A stretch of 35,288 nucleotides of DNA from Synechococcus sp. SB0668_bin_13 (GTDB lineage Bacteria; Cyanobacteriota; Cyanobacteriia; PCC-6307; Cyanobiaceae): positions 1 through 35,288 of the forward strand of contig VXWH01000054.1 of the NCBI GenBank assembly GCA_009836025.1, given 5' to 3'. This document shows positions 18,966 through 21,076 of the stretch, in pieces. Both the position numbers and the translations under genes were made by a program. The notes under the pieces are model-generated. The model made no database searches. It was not told the origin of the DNA and saw only the letters and a list, made by a program, of their open reading frames with translations. Within the stretch, counting starts at the first letter, position 1. Every line of letters begins with the position of its first letter.

Positions 18966-18979
18966 ATTTTGATTATCAC

Positions 18980-20477
<1,498 letters not shown>

Positions 20478-20492
20478 TCAGGATGGTGAACC

Positions 20493-20520
20493 CAAAAAAA
20501 GCTCCCCCATCGGGGAGCTT
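20493..20520 (-). terminator. Rho-independent terminator oriented for the minus strand
   Basis: + strand aaaaaaa-gctcccc-catc-ggggagc-tt; read on minus: 7-bp or longer GC stem followed by TTTTTTT. Confidence 0.85.
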
Positions 20521-20541
20521 GGGCCAGCGGTGGGCAACGGA

Positions 20542-20661
20542 TCAGCCGAGGGAAACCGACTGTTCGTGCAGGTCAACACGGCGACGGTAGGCCAGTTCCT
20601 TGGCACGACGGGCGGCCTCCTCCCGGTGCCGCTGCAGATAGTGAACGGTGATGATGGACAT
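20542..20661 (-). CDS. Small basic protein, 39 aa (absent from the supplied ORF track)
   Basis: ATG..TGA on minus: MSIITVHYLQRHREEAARRAKELAYRRRVDLHEQSVSLG*; minus-strand terminator begins ~21 bp after the stop. Confidence 0.65.
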   Translation of the reverse strand: MSIITVHYLQRHREEAARRAKELAYRRRVDLHEQSVSLG

Positions 20662-20755
20662 GGGATGCACCTCCAGATTGTGTGGGACGTGGTGCGTTGC
20701 TTCGGGCCAAGGGACCCTACTTCCGCCTGAGCATCAGGTCAACGAGAATTAAACA

Positions 20756-20769
20756 GTAGCAATTGCTAC
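20756..20769. promoter_or_regulatory. Perfect 14-bp palindrome matching the NtcA consensus GTA-N8-TAC
   Basis: GTAGCAATTGCTAC in the divergent gap between the 39-aa ORF and the 67-aa ORF. Confidence 0.6.
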
Positions 20770-20872
20770 CGAATTTTGTCAAGGGGATGGCTTTTTGTGA
20801 AGCGGCGGATCCTGTCCCGGGGTGGCGGATTGGTTTAGCCTCACCACGTGATCTTTACACTCCGCACTGGGC

Positions 20873-21076
20873 ATGATGCGCACTCCATTCCGTTCTCCGC
20901 ACGCCCTGACGACTCCCTCTCTGCGGGAACAGGGCTTGACCGTGGGGGAACTGGTGCTGATTGTGCTGGTTATTCTGGTTGCCGTGGCCGGAGCCTGGCT
21001 CTTTCTGGGCGGCCAGCAGCCAACCCCCTCTGACGAAGCCACCGTGCAGCCTTCAACCCTGAATCAGCCGTACTGA
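20873..21076 (+). CDS. Small single-TM protein with type IV prepilin-like N-terminus
   Basis: MMRTPFRSPHALTTPSLREQG|LTVGELVLIVLVILVAVAGAWLFLGGQQPTPSDE...: Gly before hydrophobic helix, Glu at +5. Confidence 0.65.
   Translation: MMRTPFRSPHALTTPSLREQGLTVGELVLIVLVILVAVAGAWLFLGGQQPTPSDEATVQPSTLNQPY

Follow-up and report, generated by a model that had tools for sequence, protein, structure and literature searches.

A conserved cyanobacterial gene for a 39-residue mini-protein, preceded by an NtcA-type promoter box and a type-1 glutamine riboswitch

The gifB gene of Synechocystis is repressed by NtcA and activated by a riboswitch (PMC6316151). Its NtcA site at the promoter core and its glnA-type aptamer in the 5'UTR are arranged in series, and the product, IF17, is a small, Arg-rich protein of about 149 aa. 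IF7 (GifA; NF052599) is likewise small, basic and NtcA-repressed. PirA (Ssr0692) is a basic, NtcA-repressed protein of only 51 aa that acts on PII; NtcA sites overlap its promoter, and the accessible part of the report mentions no riboswitch control (PMC8092223). In picocyanobacteria, small DUF4278 (YRG-repeat) proteins such as PMM1846, for which an NtcA motif has also been reported, are encoded downstream of glutamine riboswitches, and both type-1 and type-2 glutamine riboswitches have been reported to be activating switches (PMC6316151, PMC6698751). Marine picocyanobacteria lack IF7, IF17 and PirA, and how their glutamine synthetase is restrained under plentiful nitrogen has been stated to be unclear (PMC6316151); PirA has also been reported elsewhere to be absent from these organisms (PMC8092223).

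The window analysed here is a stretch of 35,288 nt from Synechococcus sp. SB0668_bin_13 (contig VXWH01000054.1). Because the named records of its genus are those of Candidatus Synechococcus spongiarum, the host most likely falls within this sponge-symbiont clade. The minus strand of the window contains a conserved, selected coding gene for a 39-aa mini-protein (MSIITVHYLQRHREEAARRAKELAYRRRVDLHEQSVSLG) with two nitrogen-related control elements (Table 1), arranged in the order NtcA-type box with the -10, glutamine aptamer, Shine-Dalgarno sequence (SD), ORF and terminator. The ORF, a terminator about 21 bp beyond its stop and a palindrome about 95 bp upstream of its ATG had all been described in a first-pass annotation of this DNA, and each is found as described; the glutamine riboswitch lying between promoter and ORF was missing from that description. 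A GTG start three codons upstream of the ATG was rejected, as its position falls at the SD.

Table 1. Features of the mini-protein locus (window coordinates)
Feature	Position	Strand	Remarks
39-aa mini-protein ORF	20542..20661 (including stop)	-	ATG 20659-20661; TGA 20542-20544; coding 20545-20661
Shine-Dalgarno GGAGG	20670..20674	-	8 nt before the ATG; read from the sequence
Intrinsic terminator	20494..20520	-	9-bp stem (20520-20499) and U-run; onset 21 nt past the stop
Type-1 glutamine riboswitch aptamer (RF01739)	20691..20746	-	Rfam: 47.3 bits, gathering 35, E value 3e-9
Putative anti-SD segment GCACC	20691..20695	-	at the 3' border of P1; could pair with GGUGC at 20667-20671
-10 box TACTGT	20753..20758	-	TACNRT conserved; T-A-n-n-n-T in 35/35 loci
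-35-like TTGACA	20777..20782	-	separated from the -10 by 18 nt; most members of the genus have a TTGNCA-like sequence
NtcA-type box GTAGCAATTGCTAC	20756..20769		overlaps the -10; 94 nt upstream of the ATG

In the host genus, ten genomes were compared (Candidatus Synechococcus spongiarum SH4, SP3, LMB bulk15M and isolate 1, together with metagenome genomes). All ten encode the peptide, with 85-97% identity to the window copy, and all ten carry the type-1 glutamine riboswitch at the locus, the cassette lying between thiC and recF. A GC hairpin at the terminator position is also present in 10/10, although the U-run is weak in two (L003 and L008).

Relatives of the gene were sought in 400 sampled genomes of the host's taxonomic family, 132 of which contain RF01739, and the downstream ORFs were inspected at about 100 of these riboswitch loci. 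Type-2-like loci aside, nearly all of these ORFs fall into two groups, one encoding DUF4278/YRG proteins and the other a 37-aa peptide exemplified by MSITTARQMARQAEEARRAARQLAFSVQNLRKHVLID. The profiles of the 37-aa and 39-aa peptides align from residue 1 of both (probability 93%, E value 2.5e-7), which indicates that the two are homologous; this kinship is further backed, independently of the profile match, by the aptamer and box common to both. By profile search the family is present in about 46 of the 400 genomes, distributed over seven genera (g1, g6, g9, g30, g45, g47 and g59). A class-wide search outside the taxonomic family gave no convincing match, two weak ones, which lie inside long reading frames (266 and 279 aa) of other cyanobacteria, being taken as chance, and no relatives were found in the viral contigs searched. 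In the other genera the 37-aa genes belong to the same promoter-aptamer-ORF cassette and are followed by fba at a distance of 123-438 nt in 25/25 loci measured, usually with their own terminator in between. Since the 37-aa genes precede fba and the spongiarum cassette lies between thiC and recF, the cassette has been kept together at two distinct genomic locations.

The RF01739 match in the window is full length (model positions 1-53 of 53) and includes the conserved core. Downstream of it, the GGUGC that faces the anti-SD segment adjoins and overlaps the SD, and together the two would form a putative translational expression platform. The 37-aa class has GCC(A)UCC opposite GGAGGC, and loci L065 and L070 have CCUC opposite GAGG; thus the anti-SD/SD complementarity is retained between the classes despite differences in both strands, with one locus (L011) pairing through wobble only. 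In the known glutamine aptamer, ligand binding puts G23 into P1, where it pairs with the linchpin C60 (PMC11477058). The base equivalent to C60 would be the first base of the anti-SD at this locus, and the two states would be expected to compete. Three mini-protein genes (L220-L222, in G099, G150 and G189) have the aptamer core deleted but retain the ORF and the NtcA box together with a short hairpin. They are natural single-layer variants in which the two control layers are separated, and so offer a direct comparison of these layers.

The mini-protein is basic and is predicted by AlphaFold to be a single helix (residues 3-38, pLDDT 81). It has no significant family match in Pfam, NCBIfam or PHROG, and searching PDB sequences with the profile of the family returned chance matches only (best E value 0.18). 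Against NCBIfam no match was obtained for the 39-aa peptide at E values up to 1, whereas IF7 matches NF052599; the mini-family and IF7 profiles do not align (hhalign probability 0.3%), and neither the 39-aa nor the 37-aa peptide matches the IF7 model or profile. Compared with IF17, the mini-protein is far shorter, is without the DUF4278 half and cannot be matched to the IF7-like half by any similarity detected. Nor is it a DUF4278 protein, as it does not match Pfam PF14105, unlike the other class of riboswitch-associated proteins, which does. Judged by sequence, therefore, it is not a member of IF7/IF17, though the gene carries the same two kinds of control element as gifB. The first-pass annotation had suggested a nitrogen-responsive small protein like GifA/GifB, and of this idea the nitrogen-related control is supported by two independent sensing elements, the box and the riboswitch, while homology to GifA/GifB is not. 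An IF7 query, validated by its matches to NF052599 and to 86 of the 145 genomes searched in the class, found no match among the listed genomes of the host's taxonomic family, which appears to lack IF7/IF17.

We propose that the gene probably encodes a regulatory mini-protein induced under nitrogen-replete conditions, with NtcA as the off-switch and glutamine as the on-switch, and that its product is likely to restrain a nitrogen-assimilation protein. The two sensors would act in series on a monocistronic gene, and the basic helical product would be made only under nitrogen abundance. At high 2-oxoglutarate, active NtcA would bind the box over the -10 and block transcription. At low glutamine the leader would keep the SD paired with the anti-SD just 3' of P1, while glutamine binding would pull the anti-SD edge into P1 and free the SD, a switching model read solely from the base complementarity of the two segments. 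The peptide would then most likely bind and restrain its target. Glutamine synthetase would be the first candidate, as it is the target of the regulators with the same wiring and as the host's family seems to be without IF7/IF17.

A target other than glutamine synthetase under the same regulation, e.g., PII (as for PirA) or an enzyme of carbon metabolism, has a chance that we put only a little below even. Another target is made possible by the location of the 37-aa relatives upstream of fba, and the lack of a sequence match between the mini-family and IF7 points the same way, as does PirA, an NtcA-repressed basic protein acting on PII (PMC8092223). However, the neighbours in the host genus are thiC and recF rather than fba, a terminator usually intervenes where fba is the neighbour, and PirA itself is reported to be absent from marine picocyanobacteria (PMC8092223). 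Going further with glutamine synthetase or a partner of it as the target, we speculate, as a reading less likely than not, that the family could be a minimal one-helix brake of 37-39 aa, without homology to the known inactivating factors, which replaces IF7/IF17 in picocyanobacteria. If this were so, the brake would be produced only when low 2-oxoglutarate and high glutamine both signal nitrogen excess. The family is a concrete candidate for restraining glutamine synthetase in the symbiont clade and, judged by the searches made, in several other genera of the same taxonomic family; of its two deduced inputs, NtcA would switch it off and glutamine would switch it on. Both the glutamine riboswitch and the NtcA logic are already known; for a non-DUF4278 mini-protein family under both controls we found no description in the literature searched, though an earlier mention in the primary riboswitch literature is possible.

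The sign proposed for the NtcA-type box depends on its geometry. With transcription inferred to start at about 20746, the centre of the box would lie at about -16.5. A TTTAAT does adjoin the palindrome, as the first-pass annotation had pointed out; it was rejected as the -10, however, since conservation is seen for TACNRT but not for TTTAAT. Across the 35 aligned mini-protein loci the left GTA is invariant and the right TA is invariant, followed by NRTTT or a near variant, and in 35/35 the right half-site is at the same time the first half of the -10 (TACNRT). An exact GTA-N8-TAC immediately precedes the leader, at a constant position, in 44/45 mini-protein loci (the 35 aligned, 34 of them with the exact box, and ten added later) against 0/55 DUF4278 riboswitch loci, the mini-protein loci covering seven genera but being related by descent and hence not independent events. 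Within the host genus the box at the orthologous position is exact in 9/10 genomes, and in the tenth TAT replaces TAC, still leaving a TATTAT -10. Farther upstream, many 37-aa loci also have an imperfect second copy, GTA-N8-(A)AC. The first-pass annotation had left activation or repression undecided, and NtcA can also act as an activator elsewhere. At NtcA-activated promoters the site lies near -41.5 (PMC8092223), and at the NtcA-repressed gif and pirA promoters the sites lie over the core promoter (PMC6316151, PMC8092223). Because the box overlaps the -10 in the manner of the latter, repression would be the expected sign.

We consider it improbable that some regulator besides NtcA occupies the palindrome instead, or that the palindrome serves as an activator site or an RNA hairpin. 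The distance from the usual activating position leaves some room for a different regulator or mode of action. On the other hand, the genus encodes NtcA (TIGR03697 scores 362 bits in the host's own genome and exceeds the cut-off in 9/10 genus genomes), and the glnA promoters of two relatives bear the same type of sequence (GTAGCAAGCGCTAC and GTAGCAACCGATAC). As regards a hairpin, the inner bases often break the symmetry (GTAAC...GCTAC), so that the arms lose self-complementarity and GTA...TAC alone is invariant; moreover, the box is located at or upstream of the -10 and therefore should not be transcribed. What is conserved at the palindrome thus has the character of a protein site rather than an RNA hairpin, and the palindrome was rejected as a hairpin or terminator for the same want of conserved arm symmetry.

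A functional product that is a small regulatory or dual-function RNA, with the ORF secondary, is more improbable still. The transcript would be short and monocistronic with a terminator, and yfr6 was initially called a noncoding RNA (PMC2864571). In the 39-aa class, however, synonymous differences exceed amino-acid-changing ones (dN/dS, as pN/pS, of 0.22) and third codon positions account for 23/40 variable columns; the corresponding values for the 37-aa class are 0.38 and 30/66. A purine-rich SD is found at the corresponding position in 35/35 aligned loci, and the start codon is conserved with it. These substitution patterns indicate that the mini-peptide is under purifying selection. The reading as a chance ORF beside a chance palindrome, which could appeal to the shortness of the ORF and to the single GTA-N8-TAC of the window (0.47 expected, hence near expectation), is already refuted, since all the elements are conserved across the seven genera. 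The 2.16-Mb genome has 73 GTA-N8-TAC sites, against 546 for the pattern read backwards.

The DUF4278 riboswitch loci differ from the mini-protein loci in their upstream regions as well as in their products. None of the 55 type-1 loci of this kind has the NtcA box, and 42 of them (among L032 and L038-L111) have instead a GTTC-N5-GAAC palindrome, mostly GTTCACCATGAAC, 39-42 bp before an element AAGGACAAAACGTT that varies slightly among loci, i.e., about where an activator would sit. This palindrome is absent from the spongiarum genus. A second glutamine riboswitch does occur in the host genus, where, in the genomes examined, a DUF4278 protein is encoded downstream of it; in the host's own genome (L021) the riboswitch-DUF4278 gene lies beside glnB (PII), and a 22-bp palindrome after the DUF4278 stop, TTCAGTAGCGATAGCTACTGAA, which contains GTA-N8-TAC, could be either an NtcA site or the hairpin of a terminator. 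Two riboswitch-like loci of genus g5 (L109 and L031) have hybrid ORFs in which one or two YRG motifs come after a basic, helical N-terminal part; these ORFs may link the mini-protein-like helices to DUF4278. Two loci of genus g56 (L106 and L107) have a glutamine motif resembling the downstream-peptide type and a GTAG-N6-CTAC box; the protein encoded downstream is 100 aa long and contains a hydrophobic stretch and no YRG motif.

Two neighbours of the mini-protein gene in the window were also noted. Divergent from it, at 20873-21076 on the plus strand, is a 67-aa ORF with a single transmembrane segment, in which ...EQG|LTVGELVLIVLVILVAVAG, with its G and an E at +5, looks similar to the cleavage site of prepilins; the DNA of this interval is conserved across most of the genus alignment. 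On the other side, a TPP riboswitch (RF00059, 69.7 bits) is located at 18971-19069 on the plus strand, upstream of thiC. As TPP-thiC runs on the plus strand and the mini-protein gene on the minus strand, the two riboswitch genes face each other and converge near 20480-20540.
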